Under the pieces are notes generated by a model. It made no database searches, was not told the origin of the DNA, and worked only from the letters and a program-made list of their open reading frames with translations. A stretch of DNA of 64,000 nucleotides from an uncultured Geobacteraceae bacterium (GTDB taxonomy: Bacteria > Desulfobacterota > Desulfuromonadia > Geobacterales > Pseudopelobacteraceae): the NCBI GenBank assembly GCA_903875605.1, contig CAIQWT010000018.1, positions 1-64,000 of the forward strand. Direction: 5' to 3'. Made by a program: the position numbers and the translations under genes. Position 1 is the first letter of the stretch, and each line of letters begins with the position of its first letter. This document shows, one piece after another, positions 24,460 to 31,612 of the stretch.

Positions 24460-24546
24460 GCGGTGGTGGCGGAACTGGTAGACGCACCAGCTTGAGGGGC
24501 TGGCGGGGGCAACTCCGTGATGGTTCGATTCCATTCCACCGCACCA
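24460..24546 (+). tRNA. tRNA-Leu (anticodon GAG)
   Basis: A class II tRNA of 87 nt with encoded CCA. The acceptor stem GCGGTGG pairs with CCACCGC, the anticodon stem CCAGC/GCTGG encloses TTGAGGG with anticodon GAG at 24494-24496, a variable arm follows, and the T arm has GGTTCGATTCC. A TTGACA at 24400 has no matching -10 box. A terminator follows at 24590, and then an integrase remnant, making this a likely past integration site. Confidence 0.97.
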
Positions 24547-24589
24547 GTTATAATGAAATCATGTAGTTAGCATGGTTCCAGCTAAAGAG

Positions 24590-24637
24590 AACCTGTTTTT
24601 GTCACAGTTTTACGACTGTGAGGAAGCAGGTTTTTTT
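24590..24637 (+). terminator. Terminator of tRNA-Leu
   Basis: A long hairpin: the outer stem AACCTG/CAGGTT and the inner stem CACAGT/ACTGTG are bridged by mostly U-A and G-U pairs, followed by seven T (24631-24637). It begins 44 nt after the tRNA. The integrase remnant's ATG directly follows the T-tract. Confidence 0.75.
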
Positions 24638-25002
24638 ATGTCCAAACATCTACTTGTCCGAAATGGTCACTTTTATTTCAGGCAGTGGATACCACTTGAC
24701 CTCCGGCACTCGTTTGAAGGAAAGGTAGACGTTACCACCTCGCTCAAGACAACGGATACCTACTCCAACAATTCCATAATCATGTCGAGATCCGAAAAGA
24801 ATCTCTCGCTCTCACCCTTCTATGTTCTGGTTTACAAATATCACTAACAGTCAATTTATCCACCTACGCACTCAAGCGCCTGATACCAGGCAAGAAGAAA
24901 CCCCTGATCCACCTGAATGATCTGTGTGAACTTTATGCCCTGATTAAATACAACAAAAAACGGATTATAAGCTTCAGAATTGACAGTATATTACAGATTT
25001 AA
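24638..25002 (+). pseudogene. Frameshifted, truncated tyrosine integrase (N-terminal part only)
   Basis: The first frame (24638-24847) reads MSKHLLVRNGHFYFRQWIPL and then DLRHSF and SLKTTD, the N-terminal arm-binding pattern (DUF6538-like) of phage-type integrases. About 45 codons in, homology shifts by a net -1 frame. The new frame continues through RKESLALTLLCSGLQ (family position of the F.LLRSG motif) and LNDLCELYALIKYN (family position of the S.L...Y motif), and stops at 25002. The catalytic domain (R..HxxR..Y) is absent. The location 91 nt after tRNA-Leu is classic for an integrase at its attachment site. The frame reconstruction was done by eye. Confidence 0.7.
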
Positions 25003-25306
25003 AATTAGATGACAGTGTCGTTTGCAAATAATAACTCTATAAAAAACCCTTGTTACCTGATTACTATTAATTTAGTCATATTTTAAAACATAAATTTGGG
25101 TTTTATCTATAAGTAATTGACAACAGAAATTCATAGCGTATAAAGATAACGTATAAGTGCTAATGATCGATCCATGTTAATTTGTTTCAAACACCAATCT
25201 ACATGTTTAGTCTTTGCGGCTATCCGATGTGCGAGATGTTTGATTGATATCGTCTGACCTTGTCCAGACTTATATGGCGGTGAAAACCAGTGGAAAGGAG
25301 TTTTAC
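25003..25306 (+). other. AT-rich spacer and leader, no gene seen
   Basis: About 300 nt between the integrase remnant and the FecR-domain gene. It holds the promoter at 25117-25144, giving a leader of roughly 155 nt. I see no cyclic-di-GMP riboswitch core, no other recognised RNA and no second copy of the tRNA-Leu 3' end. Confidence 0.6.
25117..25144 (+). promoter_or_regulatory. Sigma-70 promoter of the FecR/SLH/LPP20 cluster
   Basis: Perfect TTGACA (25117-25122) and TATAAA (25139-25144) are 16 bp apart. Transcription start is expected near 25151, about 155 nt before the GTG start of the first gene. Confidence 0.6.
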
Positions 25307-26353
25307 GTGTTTAGAACTTTTGTTATATTTGTTGCAACACTGTCTGCATTGTCAACATCACCTGCTTTTTGTTCATCAGTAGGAACCATTAAGAAATTCA
25401 GCGGAGATGTATCTTTTAGAGTAAAAGATAATGTCCCATATATACCGATAACATCAACAATTGAAATTTCTGAAGGGTGGTGGATTAAAACTGGAAAAAA
25501 CGGTTGGATTGAGCTTGATTTGATTGATAAAAGTAAGTTTACAATTGCCAACAATTCAGAGCTGGAAATTACGCGGCTTCAAATAGATAAAACCCGAAAA
25601 GATGGGCTCTTTACGCTTACTCATGGCAAGTTAAAAGCGGCAGTAGCCACCTCTCCGGGGTTGACTTCGTCATTTAAGGTTAAGAGCAAAAGTGTTGTTG
25701 CAGGTGTAAAAGGTACAGAATTTCTTATGCTTTCGGAGGGTCCGGCAAATGTTTTTTTCGGGAATGAGGGTAGTGTTGCGATAAGTGGTTATGACGACAA
25801 AGAGAAAACTCTTTTACCCTCATATATGACACAGTCTACACGCGGGTATACTCCAATTGACCCTATCGCGGTTGAGCCAAATACACCGGTTGCTGATGCT
25901 AAAGCGGCGTTTGACTCCGTTACCAGGACTGTGCCGCCTGAAGACTGGGTAGCCTCCGATAACCTCCCTTCCATTATAGCCCGTTGGAATGTAAGTTATG
26001 GGCATTACCTTGCTGATTCTGGGAAGTACGAGCAGGCGCTGCAGGTGTTCCAGATAGCTCTTGACCTAGCAAAAACCTCTGAAATACGCTCTGATGCCCG
26101 ATTGGAGCGCGGTGCGGTCTACTCAAGATTTCTTGGTAACTCAGAAGCAGCCTTGGCAGAAAATCTGCTTATTTTGGAGGAGTACCCAAAGTCTGCTCAG
26201 GCCGAGTCAGCTCTTTTTAATATTGGACAAATCCTGTTCGAACTTTCATTTAAAGAACAATCAAAGCAACGGTTCAATGAATATTTATTGAAATATCCTC
26301 AGGGTAAACACAAAAATAACGTTGAAACATTACTTGGTATACTTGATAAATGA
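25307..26353 (+). CDS. Exported FecR-domain protein with TPR-like C-terminus
   Basis: A 348-residue exported protein. A signal peptide (about 1-23, ending SPAFCS) leads into a FecR-like domain (about 24-150: VGTIKKFSGDVSF, ELDLIDKSKFTIANNSELE, SVVAGVKGTEFL). The C-terminus (about 220-348) has tetratricopeptide-like helices (YEQALQVFQIALDLA, FNIGQILFEL). The frame is open to a TTG at 25244, but the GTG at 25307 has AAAGGAG 6 nt upstream and produces a clean signal peptide, so it is used. No FecI sigma factor is nearby, so a FecR-type signalling role is unlikely; stand-alone FecR domains usually occur in envelope proteins. It is the first gene of the envelope cluster. Confidence 0.85.
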   Translation: MFRTFVIFVATLSALSTSPAFCSSVGTIKKFSGDVSFRVKDNVPYIPITSTIEISEGWWIKTGKNGWIELDLIDKSKFTIANNSELEITRLQIDKTRKDGLFTLTHGKLKAAVATSPGLTSSFKVKSKSVVAGVKGTEFLMLSEGPANVFFGNEGSVAISGYDDKEKTLLPSYMTQSTRGYTPIDPIAVEPNTPVADAKAAFDSVTRTVPPEDWVASDNLPSIIARWNVSYGHYLADSGKYEQALQVFQIALDLAKTSEIRSDARLERGAVYSRFLGNSEAALAENLLILEEYPKSAQAESALFNIGQILFELSFKEQSKQRFNEYLLKYPQGKHKNNVETLLGILDK

Positions 26354-26500
26354 GCACTTATACATACGTAATAATTTATATCGCTAGATAATTAATGCGC
26401 CTGATAAGCTGTTTCAGGGTGGAAACTTTCTCTACACTAGAGAATACCAAAAGTACTATTTAAACACTGGTTAACGATTTATTTCCAAGGAGGAAATTCA

Positions 26501-27712
26501 ATGAAAGACAGAATTATTCAGATGTCCCTGATGATTGCATCCGGCGTGGCGTTGCTGTCCGGTTGCTCAACTGTTCAACCCAAATGCACTGCAGCAGAAG
26601 ACAATCCTGCTCATCATTACCAAATCGGTATGAAGGCTCTTGAGGAAGGTAATGTTACGGTTGCTCAGGCAAAATTCGATCGTGCACTGTATTGTGACGA
26701 TCAGTTCAGCATTGCACATTCTGGATTGGCCATCGTTTCAGCTGAAAAGGTCAAAGCTCAAAATGACACAGGATTCAAGGCTGTTGAAATGGAACGGGTA
26801 TCTGATGAGCTGAAAAAAGCCAAAAAACAGTCAGAACGCCCTGATCAATACTTTGATTACTACACCGCAGTTATTCGCACCGACACACTTATGAAACAGA
26901 AAAACTGGCTTGCTGATTCAGAAGAAGCTTCTATAGAAGGAAACAAGCTGAAAGTTGACGAACGTAATCTGACCTATTATCAGGGAACAGAGGCAATGAC
27001 CTACTTTATGGGAGTCGCCTGGTTGGAAGGTAAAGAGTTTCAAAAAGCCCGCGACTCCTTCGGCGCTGTTCTTAATTCTAAGCGGGAAGGCAAATGGCAT
27101 GAGAAAGCAGACAAGGGTTGGAAACGGGTTGACAAAATTGTACGTGCTATGGGCGGCATCACAGTCGGTGATGTTGGTAAATCTATCGCAACAAAAGAGT
27201 CTGTCTCTCGTGCCGACCTGGCGGGACTCATTATTGATGAACTGAAAATTGAAAAAGTGATGGCTGGACGCATTCCTCTGGCAACTCAGGCCGCTAAGAA
27301 AGCTGAATTTACTCCGGCAGACATGACTAATCACCCATTCAAAGAGGAGGTTCTTACCTTAATGAAATGGAATGTTCGCGGTATGGAACCAAAATATGAT
27401 GATGCCACCCGAGCCTATTTATTCAAACCGGCTGATCCGGTTACTCGTGGTGAAATGGCCTTTATTCTGGAAGATGTTTTGATTAAGCTTACCGGTGATG
27501 AAAAAATAGCCACTGCTTATTTTGGCCAGGATAGATCGCCATTTGCAGATGTTAAGCCAACGTCGGCCCTATACAACGCAGTCATGAATATGACCACTCG
27601 TAATATCATGGAAAGTGAACTTTCCGGTGAATTCAGAGTTACTGCACCGGTAGACGGAGCCGAAGCGCTGTTGGCAATTCGTACACTTAAACAGAGAATA
27701 AATACTTACTAA
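26501..27712 (+). CDS. TPR lipoprotein with two C-terminal SLH-like domains
   Basis: A 403-residue predicted lipoprotein: the signal peptide ends at lipobox LLSGC. TPR-like helices (about 40-210, HYQIGMKALEEGNVTVAQAKF) precede two S-layer-homology-like repeats (about 265-330, with PADPVTRGEMAFILEDVL; and about 345-400, with FADVKPTSALYNAVMNM). SLH domains bind cell-wall polymers or peptidoglycan, so the protein could tie the outer membrane to the wall (inference). AAGGAGG precedes the ATG. A perfect 7-bp hairpin (26428-26444) lies in the 147-nt gap upstream; the next gene follows after 19 nt. Confidence 0.85.
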   Translation: MKDRIIQMSLMIASGVALLSGCSTVQPKCTAAEDNPAHHYQIGMKALEEGNVTVAQAKFDRALYCDDQFSIAHSGLAIVSAEKVKAQNDTGFKAVEMERVSDELKKAKKQSERPDQYFDYYTAVIRTDTLMKQKNWLADSEEASIEGNKLKVDERNLTYYQGTEAMTYFMGVAWLEGKEFQKARDSFGAVLNSKREGKWHEKADKGWKRVDKIVRAMGGITVGDVGKSIATKESVSRADLAGLIIDELKIEKVMAGRIPLATQAAKKAEFTPADMTNHPFKEEVLTLMKWNVRGMEPKYDDATRAYLFKPADPVTRGEMAFILEDVLIKLTGDEKIATAYFGQDRSPFADVKPTSALYNAVMNMTTRNIMESELSGEFRVTAPVDGAEALLAIRTLKQRINTY

Positions 27713-27731
27713 AACACCGGAGGAATAACCA

Positions 27732-28655
27732 ATGAAAACGATCATCATTACAATCCTGCTCTCCATGACTATGGCCATGGTTGCCCATGCCGACAGCGTT
27801 CAGGTAGACGTTGCTTTTACCAAAACCCGTAAATACCTTGATGATAATAAAGTTAACGTTACTGGTGGACCTGGTGGTGCCCGTGACGATCTGGCCGCTT
27901 TCGGGCAGGAAGCAATAATGTTTTATGGACAGGCTGCTGGAAACCCTAAGCATACCGGTTCACAGCGCGGGTTGTTGGCTCAACGGGCAGCGGTACTTGA
28001 TGCACAGCGCGCCATGGCGGAATACCTGGAGGGGTTTGTCATTGTTGGCGTCACTCTGGTGAAAGACAGTATGCTGCAGGACGATGTCATTTTGTCAACT
28101 GTGTCTGCACTTGTTAAGGGGAGTCAGGTAGTAGTGCAGGAATACAGCAAAGAGGCTGACACTGCTATCGCCGTTGTTAAGCTTGGCTTGCACGGACCTA
28201 AAGGTTTTGCTTCTACCTTCTATGAAAAAATGGGCAGTGATCCCAAGCTGAAAGAAACAGTCAAGAGTGACAAAAAACCATTCATTGTACCGGAAGCAGA
28301 GGTTAAGCATGATGTCGCGTATGACGGTCTCATAATTGACGCTACAGAGCAGAGCTTTAGGCCCGCTCTTATCAATCGTATCTTCGCCACAAAAGGTGAC
28401 ATCCTTTATGACCCTGCTAAAATAAGTCAGAAGGTGCTAGTTGAGCAGGGGTGCGGGGAATACACTAATAGCATCGATAAGGCCAAAGCTGCTCTGTCTA
28501 CAAGAGGGGTTAAAAATCCGTTGGTAATCAAGGCTTCAGGCGCTACCAGCGCCGCAGATCTTCAGGTAACCGATGATGATGCAGTGATAATTTACTCAGC
28601 TAATCAAAAAGGCAGTTTCATGGCGGCGGCAAAAGTTGCATTTGTGTTGAAATAA
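27732..28655 (+). CDS. LPP20-like exported protein (FlgP/FlgT-type N-terminal pattern)
   Basis: A 307-residue exported protein with a signal peptide cut near AHA-DS. Residues about 75-150 (LLAQRAAVLDAQRAMAEYLEG ... VSALVKGSQVV) match the LPP20/FlgP pattern of alternating Ala-rich helix and beta strand found in envelope and flagellar-basal proteins. The C-terminal half (about 185-307) includes a second alpha/beta module beginning VAYDGLIIDATEQSF. No flagellar gene is adjacent. CGGAGGA precedes the ATG. It is co-transcribed with the SLH lipoprotein and ended by a strong terminator. Confidence 0.75.
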   Translation: MKTIIITILLSMTMAMVAHADSVQVDVAFTKTRKYLDDNKVNVTGGPGGARDDLAAFGQEAIMFYGQAAGNPKHTGSQRGLLAQRAAVLDAQRAMAEYLEGFVIVGVTLVKDSMLQDDVILSTVSALVKGSQVVVQEYSKEADTAIAVVKLGLHGPKGFASTFYEKMGSDPKLKETVKSDKKPFIVPEAEVKHDVAYDGLIIDATEQSFRPALINRIFATKGDILYDPAKISQKVLVEQGCGEYTNSIDKAKAALSTRGVKNPLVIKASGATSAADLQVTDDDAVIIYSANQKGSFMAAAKVAFVLK

Positions 28656-28672
28656 ACATTATCAGGTGTGTG

Positions 28673-28704
28673 GCGGGGTGGCTTGGAGCTACCCCGCTTT
28701 TTTT
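28673..28704 (+). terminator. Rho-independent terminator after the LPP20-like gene
   Basis: GCGGGGT (28673-28679) pairs with ACCCCGC (28691-28697) around an 11-nt loop, followed by seven T. It separates the three-gene unit from the transglutaminase gene. Confidence 0.9.
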
Positions 28705-28758
28705 GTACCCGGGTCAATGACATAGCAGTAAGAATGCGTGCCATCTGGAGAAGAGTTG

Positions 28759-30717
28759 ATGGCATGTAACATACATACTTCGAGGCTCCTTATGACCAGA
28801 TGCAATATACTCTCATTCGTTTTTGGCTTGTTAATAATGTGTGCCGCTCCTGTACTGGCAAAAACTCTGGTGGTTGAAGGAAAACTTGACGGAACAGTGA
28901 CTGTTAAAAAAAACGTGACATTTTCAGCCGATCAGTCGCTCAGTAAGTTCACCTACCAGTTTTCAGTGCCTTCTGTCTATAACAGTGCCGGGAATATCCA
29001 GCGTCTTGATGATTTTCGGGTTTCGGCAACCCCGGAACCCTCTGAAGCTAAAGAAACGACGGATCAGTTTGGTAACCGATCCAGAAAATTGATCTGGCAC
29101 AATCTTCCAGGAGATGCCCAGGTTTCAATTAGTTATACTACCGGCATCACAGCTACGATTTCCCCTCGCACTAGTCGCGCGCCTTTCCCCCTGAAAATGG
29201 TGCCGGCATCCGAACGGGGCTTTCTGCAAAAAAGCAAGCTTGTTCAGAGCGAGTCAACGCAGATAATCGAACTGGCCCGAGAATTGACTGCCGGTGCAAC
29301 CACAGAACACCAGGCGGTGAGTGCCATTCTCACTCATGTTGCTGATGCTATAAAGTATCAGTATAACCCAAAACAGTATGACGCAATGTATGGCCTATCA
29401 ACAGGTTCCGGAAACTGTCAGAATTTTTCCCATCTTGCTGTAGCACTTATGCGAGCATCCGGTATTCCTGCGCGGGTTTCAATTGGCCAGACTTTAAAAG
29501 ATAAATGGAAAATTCCGTTGGATAAAAAAGGGTCGTCGCTCGTGCAGGGAATGGGTGAAGGGCTTCATGCCTGGATCGAAGTCTGGTATCCAGACCTGGG
29601 ATGGTTGCCGTGTGATCCTCAGCAATCGCGGCTGTTCACCTCAACTCGCCACATCAAGTTTGGTCACGGACTTGATGCTTCAGATGTTTTAGAATATTGG
29701 AGTGGAGCACCGGTGGTGCCAAGGATGAGTGAGAGTCTTGAAGCTAAATATTCTACTGACATAGTGGACCTTCGCCTTCGTGAAGCGCTTGATCAACCGA
29801 CAACGTATCTTCTTGCCGGTCCGGTTACGTCTATTGTTGTAGCCTTGAATGAACCTCCGCTGGTCCAACCCAAGCCGATTATTCCTGCACCGGCGCTTAA
29901 GCCTAAGCCACTACCGCCTAAGCCGGAGCCTGCTCCTCCAAAGCAGATAACCGCTGCCCAGGATGAGCCTCCTGTGGCTCAGCCTAAGCCGCTACCACAA
30001 CCAGCAAAGCCTAAACCCAAGCCGATTCCCGTGCCGGTGGTGGTCTTAGTGCCAGAGCCTGTTAAGCCGATAATTGTAGTACAGGATGAGCCGCCTGTTG
30101 TACTGCCAAAACCTGAACCGTCGCCCCAGTTACCCAAGCCCAAACTAGTTAAGGTTAAGCCGCTCCCAGCAAAACCTTTGCCAGGTTCGGCTATCGAGAT
30201 TGGCAACACCGATTTTCCTTCTTTGGTTGAGACTTTTAAAGTTGATGGTAACGTTGGTCAAAGGAGTTTTGATCGCGAGACAGCAGAATATGCAACATCC
30301 AAACATCTTTTTGCACAGGCATTTACTCTTGAAGCACCGCTTGCACTTAAGGATGTGGCACTTGCGATGCGCAAGTTTGGTGGGGACGGCACGGTATATC
30401 TTGACGTTGTACGTGACGAAGGTGGTAAGCCGAGCCTTGACGGTATTCGCTCTATGCCGGTATCACTGGAAAAAATTACTCGCAAGCCGGGATATTATTG
30501 GGTGGATTTCAAGCTGCCGGATAATTCGACGCTGCTTCCAGGCAAACACTGGCTGGTGCTGCGTCATTCAGGTGAAGCAATTATGAATTGGTTTTACACT
30601 CCAGGCAAGCGTGTCAATGGGCCGGATGACAGCCGATCCACGGCACTTGGTTGGCAGTGGGAGGATGTACTGTCGGGTGAATTTGTCTACCGTGTACGTG
30701 GTGTTATTGCGAAATAG
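28759..30717 (+). CDS. Exported transglutaminase-like protein with Pro-Lys-rich linker and C-terminal beta domain
   Basis: A 652-residue exported protein. After a signal sequence (ending APVLA) comes a beta-rich N-domain. A transglutaminase/cysteine-protease-like core follows with C220 in GSGNCQNFSH, H270 in GLHAWIEVW and D286 in WLPCDP, an intact triad. Residues about 364-475 are a Pro/Lys/Glu-rich linker like that of TonB, with three DEPPV-like repeats (one as NEPPL). The end (about 475-652) is a beta-sandwich-like domain. Two starts are possible: ATG 28759 (GGAG upstream) or ATG 28792, which gives a shorter signal peptide. Bacterial members often act as proteases or crosslinkers of surface proteins. 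It lies downstream of the SLH/LPP20 genes. Confidence 0.85.
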   Translation: MACNIHTSRLLMTRCNILSFVFGLLIMCAAPVLAKTLVVEGKLDGTVTVKKNVTFSADQSLSKFTYQFSVPSVYNSAGNIQRLDDFRVSATPEPSEAKETTDQFGNRSRKLIWHNLPGDAQVSISYTTGITATISPRTSRAPFPLKMVPASERGFLQKSKLVQSESTQIIELARELTAGATTEHQAVSAILTHVADAIKYQYNPKQYDAMYGLSTGSGNCQNFSHLAVALMRASGIPARVSIGQTLKDKWKIPLDKKGSSLVQGMGEGLHAWIEVWYPDLGWLPCDPQQSRLFTSTRHIKFGHGLDASDVLEYWSGAPVVPRMSESLEAKYSTDIVDLRLREALDQPTTYLLAGPVTSIVVALNEPPLVQPKPIIPAPALKPKPLPPKPEPAPPKQITAAQDEPPVAQPKPLPQPAKPKPKPIPVPVVVLVPEPVKPIIVVQDEPPVVLPKPEPSPQLPKPKLVKVKPLPAKPLPGSAIEIGNTDFPSLVETFKVDGNVGQRSFDRETAEYATSKHLFAQAFTLEAPLALKDVALAMRKFGGDGTVYLDVVRDEGGKPSLDGIRSMPVSLEKITRKPGYYWVDFKLPDNSTLLPGKHWLVLRHSGEAIMNWFYTPGKRVNGPDDSRSTALGWQWEDVLSGEFVYRVRGVIAK

Positions 30718-30768
30718 TATAACTTGCGGGAGATCGTGAGGAGAAAACACAAATGAATTTATGAAAGT

Positions 30769-30806
30769 AAAAAGGCACCTACAACGATTGTTGTAGGTGC
30801 CTTTTT
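30769..30806. terminator. Bidirectional terminator between transglutaminase gene and tRNA-Arg
   Basis: A perfect 17-bp stem (30769-30785 with 30790-30806) and 4-nt GATT loop, with five A on the left and five T on the right. It can end the plus-strand transglutaminase transcript and the minus-strand tRNA-Arg(TCT) transcript. Confidence 0.88.
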
Positions 30807-30811
30807 ATTAT

Positions 30812-30888
<77 letters not shown>

Positions 30889-31123: not shown

Positions 31124-31612
31124 CTAAAGTAAAGTTACACTAATCGGTAACTCCGCTCCAGTAATGGGAGTGTTGCTTGAGTCAAACAATTCGATAATAG
31201 TGGCCTTTTGAGGGAAGTCGGTGGCGTTAACAGTTACACCGGGTGCTATTGAACAGTTGATTGTAAGAAATTCACCTGAAACGAAACCGCTGCCTGAAAT
31301 AGTTCCAGGTGTCAAAGTTTTTGTGACTGCATCATAGGAAGAAGCTGTCAATGAACCCGAGATGGCATTTCCACTGGCTGTAACGGAATTGGTTGCATCG
31401 TTTCCGGACAAGACACTGGGAGTTACTCCGATCGGAAGAACAACGGAAAGTTGTGCGCCTCCCACACGAGTGCCCGAAGGAACATTTGCTGTGCTCACTT
31501 TAAGGATTGCTTTTGTATAAACGGGATTAGATCCTCCGCCTCCCCCCCCACAAGCCAACATAAGCACTGGGAGGCAGATACACATTAACAGTATTTTTAG
31601 TTTAGCAATCAT
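31124..31612 (-). CDS. Small lipoprotein with cohesin-like beta domain
   Basis: A 162-residue predicted lipoprotein: signal peptide with lipobox LMLAC followed by six glycines, a flexible tether typical of exported proteins in this lineage. The remainder is beta-rich and polar (VSTANVPSGTRVGGAQLSVVLP ... ISGSGFVSGEFLTINCSIAPG), resembling cohesin-type carbohydrate/protein-binding folds. GAGG lies upstream of the ATG. It may share a transcript with tRNA-Arg(TCG) directly downstream. Function unknown; the cohesin resemblance is a weak inference. Confidence 0.75.
   Translation of the reverse strand: MIAKLKILLMCICLPVLMLACGGGGGGSNPVYTKAILKVSTANVPSGTRVGGAQLSVVLPIGVTPSVLSGNDATNSVTASGNAISGSLTASSYDAVTKTLTPGTISGSGFVSGEFLTINCSIAPGVTVNATDFPQKATIIELFDSSNTPITGAELPISVTLL

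Follow-up and report, generated by a model that had tools for sequence, protein, structure and literature searches.

A conserved gene pair for an SLH lipoprotein and a FlgP-type protein, with transglutaminase-like and FecR-domain partners, at a tRNA-bordered site in a Geobacteraceae genome

The window analyzed here is a 64,000-nucleotide stretch of the genome of an uncultured Geobacteraceae bacterium (assembly GCA_903875605.1, contig CAIQWT010000018.1, positions 1 to 64,000), and the subject of this work is a cluster of four envelope genes that it carries between tRNA genes. On the way through the locus, secG and a tRNA-Leu gene are followed by a truncated integrase-type open reading frame (ORF), a promoter-like site, and the genes of a FecR-domain protein, a lipoprotein with tetratricopeptide repeats (TPR) and a surface-layer homology (SLH) region, and an LPP20-like exported protein. 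Beyond a terminator lies the gene of a transglutaminase-like enzyme, and the order ends with a pair of tRNA-Arg genes on the opposite strand, two minus-strand genes, and genes of the squalene-hopene cyclase, HpnA-like and DXS types (Table 1). The names secG, PGK, TpiA, squalene-hopene cyclase, HpnA-like and DXS were assigned by eye, without a family search. All features that the original prediction, made from the sequence of this stretch, had described for the four envelope genes are present at or near the places it had given. The intergenic gaps measure 147 bp between the FecR and SLH genes, 19 bp between the SLH and LPP20-like genes, and 136 bp, with the terminator inside, between the LPP20-like and transglutaminase-like genes, and thus the SLH and LPP20-like genes are the sole tightly spaced pair.

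Table 1. Features of the four-gene cluster and of the site that holds it (window coordinates).
Feature	Position	Strand	Evidence
tRNA-Leu(gag)	24460..24546	+	ARAGORN, synteny; left edge of the site (empty in relatives)
Truncated integrase-type ORF, DUF6538	24572..24847	+	Pfam 37.7 bits (cut-off 27); tblastn
Promoter-like TTGACA-16-TATAAA	25117..25144	+	Consensus match only
FecR-domain protein with TPR-like C-terminus, exported	25307..26353	+	Pfam
Outer-membrane type lipoprotein, TPR followed by SLH region	26501..27712	+	Pfam, model, fold comparison, alignment
Protein with FlgP-type (LPP20/SHS2) domain and Tp0624-D2-like C-terminal domain, exported	27732..28655	+	PDB profile, model, fold comparison
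Putative intrinsic terminator, 12-bp stem with T-run	28672..28698	+	Terminator scan
Transglutaminase-like enzyme, exported	28792..30717	+	Pfam, NCBIfam, alignment
Hairpin with T-run adjoining tRNA-Arg	30774..30806		Read by eye; absent from the scan list
tRNA-Arg(tct)	30812..30888	-	ARAGORN; right border of the site

Named prokaryote genomes scanned for the LPP20-like protein yielded 71 loci, or 72 with the window, and 66 of these offer at least 1.4 kb of upstream sequence. By title the loci belong mostly to Geobacterales and their relatives and to Nitrospirae, with a few from Syntrophorhabdales, Nitrospinota and others, and the gene is found in named, mostly cultured organisms such as Geobacter sp. 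OR-1, Trichlorobacter thiogenes, Geomonas sp. Red32 and Geomesophilobacter sediminis. An SLH lipoprotein gene lies at most 400 bp upstream on the same strand at 57 of the 66 loci. The SLH lipoprotein and the LPP20-like protein, referred to below as the FlgP-type protein, are a conserved core pair. In a tree of 70 FlgP-type proteins, those of Nitrospirota fall into at least two separate groups among Thermodesulfobacteriota, which is no proof of transfer. No paper on SLH together with FlgP/LPP20-type proteins, or on this cluster, was among the matches listed for open-licence PubMed Central.

The neighborhoods of the 72 loci were counted with our own profiles at more than 50 bits, some of the matches being weak. 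Transglutaminase-like genes are present at 36 loci, FlgT-like genes at 36, CsgG-family genes at 31, FecR genes at 16 (12 of them with a CHASE2 cyclase) and GNA1162-TPR genes at 14. These family names derive from Pfam searches with single representatives, in which the CsgG cut-off was passed by five of six, the GNA1162 cut-off was passed as well, and the FlgT_N cut-off by one of three. All four window families stand on one fetched stretch at 12 of the 71 other loci (neighborhood listing, read by eye), so the combination noticed in the window recurs elsewhere; gene order varies among loci. In Geobacter sp. OR-1, one stretch (L067) carries the SLH, FlgP-type, FecR, CHASE2 cyclase and transglutaminase-like genes together. 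At other loci the set is larger, with FlgT-like, CsgG-family and GNA1162-like proteins added, and the four window genes are its compact version. Seventeen loci are of another type, with the FlgP-type gene beside ROK-kinase-like and malic-enzyme-like genes (names assigned by eye); no transglutaminase-like, FlgT-like or CsgG-family gene was found there on the fetched stretch.

The label LPP20-like had been given to the second protein of the pair in the original prediction. The family relation holds, but the match to Pfam LPP20 itself scores 17.6, under the cut-off of 25.9; the label rests on a profile match to FlgP. A profile of 53 homologues matches five PDB sequences with E values between 3.1e-12 and 3.2e-6 (cut-off E 0.001). 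The best match (3.1e-12) is 9hmf_C, a 171-residue lipoprotein of a C. jejuni flagellar motor entry, which we take to be FlgP; two of the five are named FlgP (one at 2.5e-9) and the others are named "lipoprotein". The alignment with 9hmf_C covers 79 positions with zero gaps and spans the FlgP-type insert, a stretch of 30 residues in 53/53 homologues. Mean conservation of the insert among the homologues is 0.70, higher than in the stretches on either side (0.64 and 0.62) and lower than in the C-terminal domain (0.79). By sequence profile, the protein is nearest to flagellar FlgP. Excerpts of the source on this family describe FlgP as stemming from a broad protein family, and the insert between the SHS2 helix and the second strand as marking its ring-forming members (PMC12222027). 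At one locus (L064), two divergent copies of the gene (L064:8840-9808 and L064:10001-10921) run in opposite directions with no adjoining SLH gene, and a transglutaminase-like gene follows them with tRNA-Asp behind it.

Behind the FlgP-type domain the protein carries a second domain. Residues 184-307 of its model superpose on 5jir_A, domain D2 of Tp0624, with a Z score of 14.9 and a root mean square deviation of 2.2 Å over 118 residues at 20% identity, and Foldseek gave an E value of 1.4e-8 for the model against the 5jir chain. The alignment shown spans these residues only, and an equivalence to Tp0624 D1 lies outside it. As modeled, the C-terminal domain has the Tp0624 D2 fold. Excerpts from the authors of that structure term the fold previously uncharacterized and seen only together with D1 (PMC5104382).

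The SLH lipoprotein matches Pfam SLH with 49 bits (cut-off 20.8) in two stretches, and its SLH region comprises two repeats by Pfam and a three-repeat fold by model comparison. The model (predicted local distance difference test score, pLDDT, 84.5; predicted template modeling score, pTM, 0.78) aligns with 6bt4 at a Z score of 14.5 over 158 residues; its SLH part resembles Sap and SpaA, and its TPR region many TPR proteins including PilF and PilW. The lipobox cysteine, Cys22, is kept in 53/53 aligned homologues. As a general rule, a serine directly after the lipobox cysteine marks a lipoprotein for the outer membrane, and from the serine behind its cysteine the SLH lipoprotein is probably placed there. 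A PHROGs search with five proteins gave nothing useful, the only match being that of the SLH protein to the Cor family at 0.004.

For the transglutaminase-like enzyme, a start at ATG 28792 agrees with the homologues better than one at GTG 28738. Its core domain scores 97 bits in Pfam and is followed by a proline-rich linker and a C-terminal domain weakly like choice-of-anchor R (NCBIfam match of 20.7 bits, under the cut-off of 30). The intact Cys-His-Asp triad reported earlier was borne out: Cys209, His259 and Asp275, counted from ATG 28792 (codons at 29416, 29566 and 29614), are invariant in 31/31 aligned homologues. Transglutaminase-like enzymes act on surface proteins. A substrate was sought among the neighbors of the enzyme where its gene stands alone (L151-L154), and this approach was abandoned: the recurring neighbors are a GuaB-like gene (4/4), a GuaA-like gene (3/4) and a small cysteine-rich protein (3/4), that is, mostly genes that look like housekeeping genes (GuaB-like and GuaA-like being names given by eye). 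In Geomonas sp. Red32, a tandem pair of transglutaminase-like genes occurs together with a second, very divergent copy of the FlgP-type gene (L081:13480-18175).

Co-occurrence was analyzed in 58 genomes, namely that of the window plus 57 relatives, which were searched for the FlgP-type protein, the SLH lipoprotein, the transglutaminase-like enzyme, FliG, FecR, FlgT-like proteins and the CHASE2 cyclase. Ortholog cut-offs were chosen after clear gaps had been seen in the match lists, and where a gene is said to be lacking, a genome of the given completeness yielded no match to it. The cut-off for the FlgP-type protein (E <1e-70) excluded weak or partial matches in G004, G007 and G024 and second matches elsewhere, and that for the SLH lipoprotein (E <1e-100) excluded a 35-residue remnant in G020 and weak matches. 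For the transglutaminase-like enzyme the best match at E <1e-150 was taken, which left aside the generic transglutaminases present in all 58 genomes. FecR was called at E <1e-60 and the cyclase at more than 900 bits, which dropped G003 (888) and a partial match in G022 (856).

With these cut-offs, the SLH lipoprotein is present in 19/23 carriers of the FlgP-type protein and in 0/35 non-carriers, and the transglutaminase-like enzyme in 18/23 and 0/35. FecR occurs in 18/23 carriers and in 1/35 non-carriers, namely G024, which is 66% complete, and the module-type CHASE2 cyclase in 18/23 and 4/35 (6/35 if both dropped genomes are included). FlgT-like proteins, found in 9/23 carriers and 1/35 non-carriers, are therefore an optional partner. 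A tree of PGK, TpiA and SecG was available for 54 of the 58 genomes (G012, G024, G026 and G029 have no secG match), with 20 of the 54 missing one or two of the three markers. An independent-pairs test on this tree gave a median p of 0.0039 each for the association of the FlgP-type protein with the transglutaminase-like enzyme and with FecR. The proposal that the four genes form one system is upheld insofar as its parts belong together: the transglutaminase-like enzyme and FecR are partners of the core pair.

The FecR protein has a FecR domain of 43.9 bits (Pfam cut-off 24) and a TPR-like C-terminus that scores under the Pfam cut-offs. The start fitting its homologues is GTG 25307, preceded by GGAAAGGAG. 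Its usual neighbor is a CHASE2 adenylate cyclase, which in the window genome is encoded elsewhere. The two genes lie within 3.5 kb of each other in 14/18 genomes, the four exceptions being the window genome, G015, G020 and G032. Where FecR stands away from the FlgP-type gene, the cyclase adjoins it in 6/6 fetched loci (L155-L160). FecR directly precedes the SLH gene in the window genome, G015 and G032; G032 has its cyclase about 6 kb from FecR on one contig. In G020, FecR precedes a remnant of the pair: at this locus (L005) a fragment coding for the C-terminal 35 residues of the SLH protein separates it from the FlgP-type gene, and most of the SLH gene was either lost in nature or is missing through faulty assembly. 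The module-type cyclase of the window genome lies at G000:C50:45880-47967, with no FecR of the family around it on the fetched stretch (L161). In Burkholderia, a BiofilmReg operon encoding a LysM-FecR protein and a CHASE2 histidine kinase is tied to biofilm formation, according to excerpts of its description (PMC5192318). A role of FecR and CHASE2 in surface or biofilm control is plausible here because such neighbors are known from that biofilm-linked operon.

The cluster entered the window site between tRNA-Leu and tRNA-Arg, a gap that is empty in two relatives. From tRNA-Leu to the first tRNA-Arg the window has 6265 bp, at 24547-30811, L144 (G015) 231 bp and L145 (G027) 221 bp. The gene order of L144 is that of the window: secG, tRNA-Leu, two tRNA-Arg, two minus-strand genes, squalene-hopene cyclase, HpnA-like and DXS; in L145 the two minus-strand genes are missing. 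Other DNA fills the gap at L142 (about 1.8 kb) and L146 (about 3.0 kb), where the preceding tRNA-Leu differs in sequence. For this comparison 20 secG regions were fetched, and in 16 of them no tRNA-Arg pair was found behind tRNA-Leu within the stretch, some stretches being short. Possible acquisition, beside a tRNA with an integrase scar, had been suggested before; the arrival is supported by the empty sites, whereas the scar is a poor clue because a similar stub stands without the cluster in L131. This stub (L131:7991-8131) lies behind the same tRNA-Leu, at which that genome has no cluster, and shares 60% identity over 47 residues with that of the window; no full integrase was seen among the L131 ORFs of at least 90 residues (by eye, no family search). 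DUF6538, the domain of the window's stub, is presumably an integrase N-terminal domain. An integrase-borne island with attachment repeats was considered and rejected, since the 3' end of tRNA-Leu is repeated over at most 9 bp within 24561-30830 and the stub of L131 lacks a cluster. The cluster is not fixed in its position, and tRNA genes adjoin it in three genomes: G015 carries it elsewhere, with 165 bp between the transglutaminase-like gene and tRNA-Asp (L059), and in G025 this enzyme's gene is about 40 bp from tRNA-Asp (L064). Three such cases make a small sample, and a single event may lie behind both G015 and G025.

The promoter-like site consists of TTGACA at 25117-25122, a 16-bp spacer and TATAAA at 25139-25144. 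Described as a good promoter in the original prediction, it does match the consensus at 11/12 positions, and a functional promoter there is plausible; the promoter-like matches of the region number 20, against 18.1 (standard deviation 4.6) expected by chance, which is no excess. The site is not among the results of the promoter scan because the scan rule demands T at the last position of the -10 element. Terminator-like matches in the region number 14, against 11.9 by chance, and the one between the FlgP-type and transglutaminase-like genes has the most G-C pairs of those listed. The hairpin beside tRNA-Arg probably belongs to the site rather than to the cluster, since L146, which has no cluster, has a similar hairpin adjoining its tRNA-Arg. 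At 31124-31612 on the minus strand lies the gene of a small exported protein with a glycine-rich stretch after a lipobox-like cysteine and no Pfam match, and a relative of it is encoded at the same place in L144.

The earlier idea of a system anchoring or processing surface proteins stands as far as an envelope system is concerned, and its core is reread here as a pair of FlgP-type protein and SLH lipoprotein. We tentatively favor, at somewhat less than an even chance, an envelope scaffold independent of the flagellum, in which a wall-tethered FlgP-type scaffold at the outer membrane is combined with an enzyme that matures it and with sensing linked to a cyclase; what we infer in this proposal is the membrane placement, the formation of rings, recruitment via the TPR region, the substrate of the enzyme and FecR-CHASE2 signaling. 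The SLH lipoprotein would be anchored in the outer membrane through the lipid on Cys22, and its SLH region, judged from the modeled fold, would grip peptidoglycan or a wall polymer. Its TPR region may recruit the FlgP-type protein, itself devoid of a lipid anchor. Copies of the FlgP-type protein could assemble with one another through the insert, giving a ring, disc or patch beneath the outer membrane. The scaffold or a surface partner might be matured or cross-linked by the exported transglutaminase-like enzyme, whose gene follows the terminator. In the periplasm, the FecR-TPR protein would read the state of the scaffold or envelope and pass a signal to the inner-membrane CHASE2 adenylate cyclase, a pairing seen in the gene neighborhoods of relatives. 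In many relatives, the core stands with further outer-membrane-type proteins of the FlgT-like, CsgG-family and GNA1162-like kinds.

Several observations weigh against a scaffold of this kind. The predicted structure of the FlgP-type protein is moderate (pLDDT 76, pTM 0.46), with residues 105-123, inside the insert, at a pLDDT below 50. Its model resembles Lpp20 (5ok8) at Z 6.6 and FlgT (3w1e) at Z 5.0, values in the range of common arrangements that may reflect nothing more, and the relation to FlgP therefore rests on sequence. FlgP is named as a lipoprotein, whereas the window protein has no lipobox and a cysteine within residues 11-30 is found in 9/53 homologues. The FlgT-like label is weak, two of the three representatives falling below the FlgT_N cut-off, and the FlgT-like profile reached only 0.0023 against the FlgP chain 9hmf_C. 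At 9 of the 66 loci there is no adjacent SLH gene, and among the 23 carriers the transglutaminase-like enzyme is missing from 5, FecR from 5 and a full SLH gene from 4, which means that none of these partners is obligatory on its own. Co-transfer alone could yield the co-occurrence of linked genes, and thus the unlinked cases matter. The transglutaminase-like gene is linked to the FlgP-type gene in 14/18 genomes and FecR in 12/18; they are unlinked (separated by more than 10 kb or placed on a different contig) in 4/18 and 6/18, respectively. In G001, G002, G011 and G012, all three lie on different contigs, the separation being less certain in G002, which is only 76% complete and has small contigs.

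A further point against independence from the flagellum comes from a survey of 112 genomes of the order, each at least 90% complete, with FliG as marker. The FlgP-type protein was found in 42 of them and FliG in 93, and FliG is present in 39/42 carriers compared with 54/70 non-carriers, a weak association (uncorrected p 0.038). FlgO, FlgP and FlgT stabilize the Vibrio motor at the outer membrane, and the cluster might likewise encode, away from the flagellar genes, an accessory motor ring or disc in which the FlgP-type protein and the SLH lipoprotein steady the motor; the sequence relation to FlgP and the FlgT-like and CsgG/FlgO-family neighbors at many loci would also fit. We nevertheless consider this unlikely, since three carriers, G035, G040 and G080 (99, 92 and 99% complete), have no FliG match, most non-carriers do have FliG, and the strong tie of the FlgP-type protein is instead with the transglutaminase-like enzyme and FecR. 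In the 58 genomes, FliG occurs in 21/23 carriers and 25/35 non-carriers (p 0.10), and on the tree of 54 genomes the association is absent after correction (median p 0.63). G035 has the SLH lipoprotein, the FlgP-type protein, the transglutaminase-like enzyme, FecR and the cyclase without FliG, and G040 has the first three with no FecR match. With 3/42 carriers lacking a FliG match, flagella seem not to be required for the FlgP-type protein.

CsgG-like export or adhesin assembly, in which a surface polymer or adhesin would pass through a pore formed or gated by the outer-membrane proteins and be cut or cross-linked by the transglutaminase-like enzyme, appears equally improbable. The CsgG-family genes at 31/72 loci speak for it, and so do the five of six representatives that pass Pfam CsgG, the sixth, with fibronectin type III domains, falling below. 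On the other hand, no scanned window protein matches the CsgG family and the one match of the genome is on another contig, and the genes recurring beside the lone transglutaminase-like enzyme are of housekeeping type. At L095:15169-17388, the neighbor of a TPR-CsgG protein has five fibronectin type III stretches, and its N-terminus resembles CsgG weakly, below the cut-off. An accidental neighborhood in a tRNA hotspot, with the SLH and FlgP-type genes alone a real pair, would agree with the terminator and 136 bp ahead of the transglutaminase-like gene, the 147 bp between FecR and SLH, the other DNA between the tRNAs at L142 and L146 and the varying gene order, but is very unlikely given that the enzyme and FecR are largely confined to carriers of the FlgP-type protein and co-occur with it even on other contigs.

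The envelope scaffold may also be one case of a wider, non-flagellar class, an extension we regard as doubtful: FlgP-type rings or discs would be tied to the cell wall by an SLH lipoprotein, be matured by the transglutaminase-like enzyme and be coupled to cyclic AMP signaling via FecR-CHASE2. Such a class would extend across Geobacterales, Nitrospirota and others, with the FlgO/FlgP/FlgT rings of flagella as one specialized use of its parts. The origin of the extra outer-membrane rings in some flagellar motors is an open question, for which a conserved, apparently mobile FlgP-type set that also occurs without FliG offers a concrete subject. In addition, the Tp0624 D2 fold is placed in a new context, and the pair of FecR and CHASE2 cyclase is tied to defined envelope parts.

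Among known systems, FlgP of the Campylobacter basal disk and the Vibrio flagellar lipoprotein FlgP are related to the FlgP-type protein by a gapless profile match through the ring-linked insert. The cluster's protein differs in having no lipobox, in its extra C-terminal domain, in being encoded with an SLH lipoprotein and in occurring also in genomes without FliG. Curli CsgG-type secretion differs in that the window cluster has no CsgG-family gene, whereas 31/72 of the homologous loci have one. The SLH region has the same repeats and fold as those of the surface-layer proteins Sap of B. anthracis and SpaA, but is joined to a TPR lipoprotein and not to a surface-layer protein. With the bacterial transglutaminase-like enzymes of PDB entries 3isr and 6g49, the cluster enzyme shares a core with an intact Cys-His-Asp triad, while it has a proline-rich linker and a C-terminal domain of its own, and its type (E <1e-150) is confined among the 58 genomes to carriers of the FlgP-type protein. 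Like the Burkholderia BiofilmReg operon, the relatives' loci have an exported FecR-domain protein adjoining a CHASE2 sensor protein; here, however, the protein is of FecR-TPR type, the partner in relatives is an adenylate cyclase, and in the window genome the two stand apart. Finally, Tp0624 of Treponema pallidum (PDB 5jir) has the D2 fold in common with the C-terminal domain of the FlgP-type protein. Excerpts of its description report the D1-D2 unit as fused to an OmpA-like domain (PMC5104382). This domain, D3, stands behind D2, whereas the FlgP-type protein ends after its D2-like part and a separate SLH lipoprotein gene stands 19 bp upstream. By analogy, the SLH lipoprotein encoded beside the FlgP-type protein may parallel the OmpA-like domain that is fused in Tp0624.

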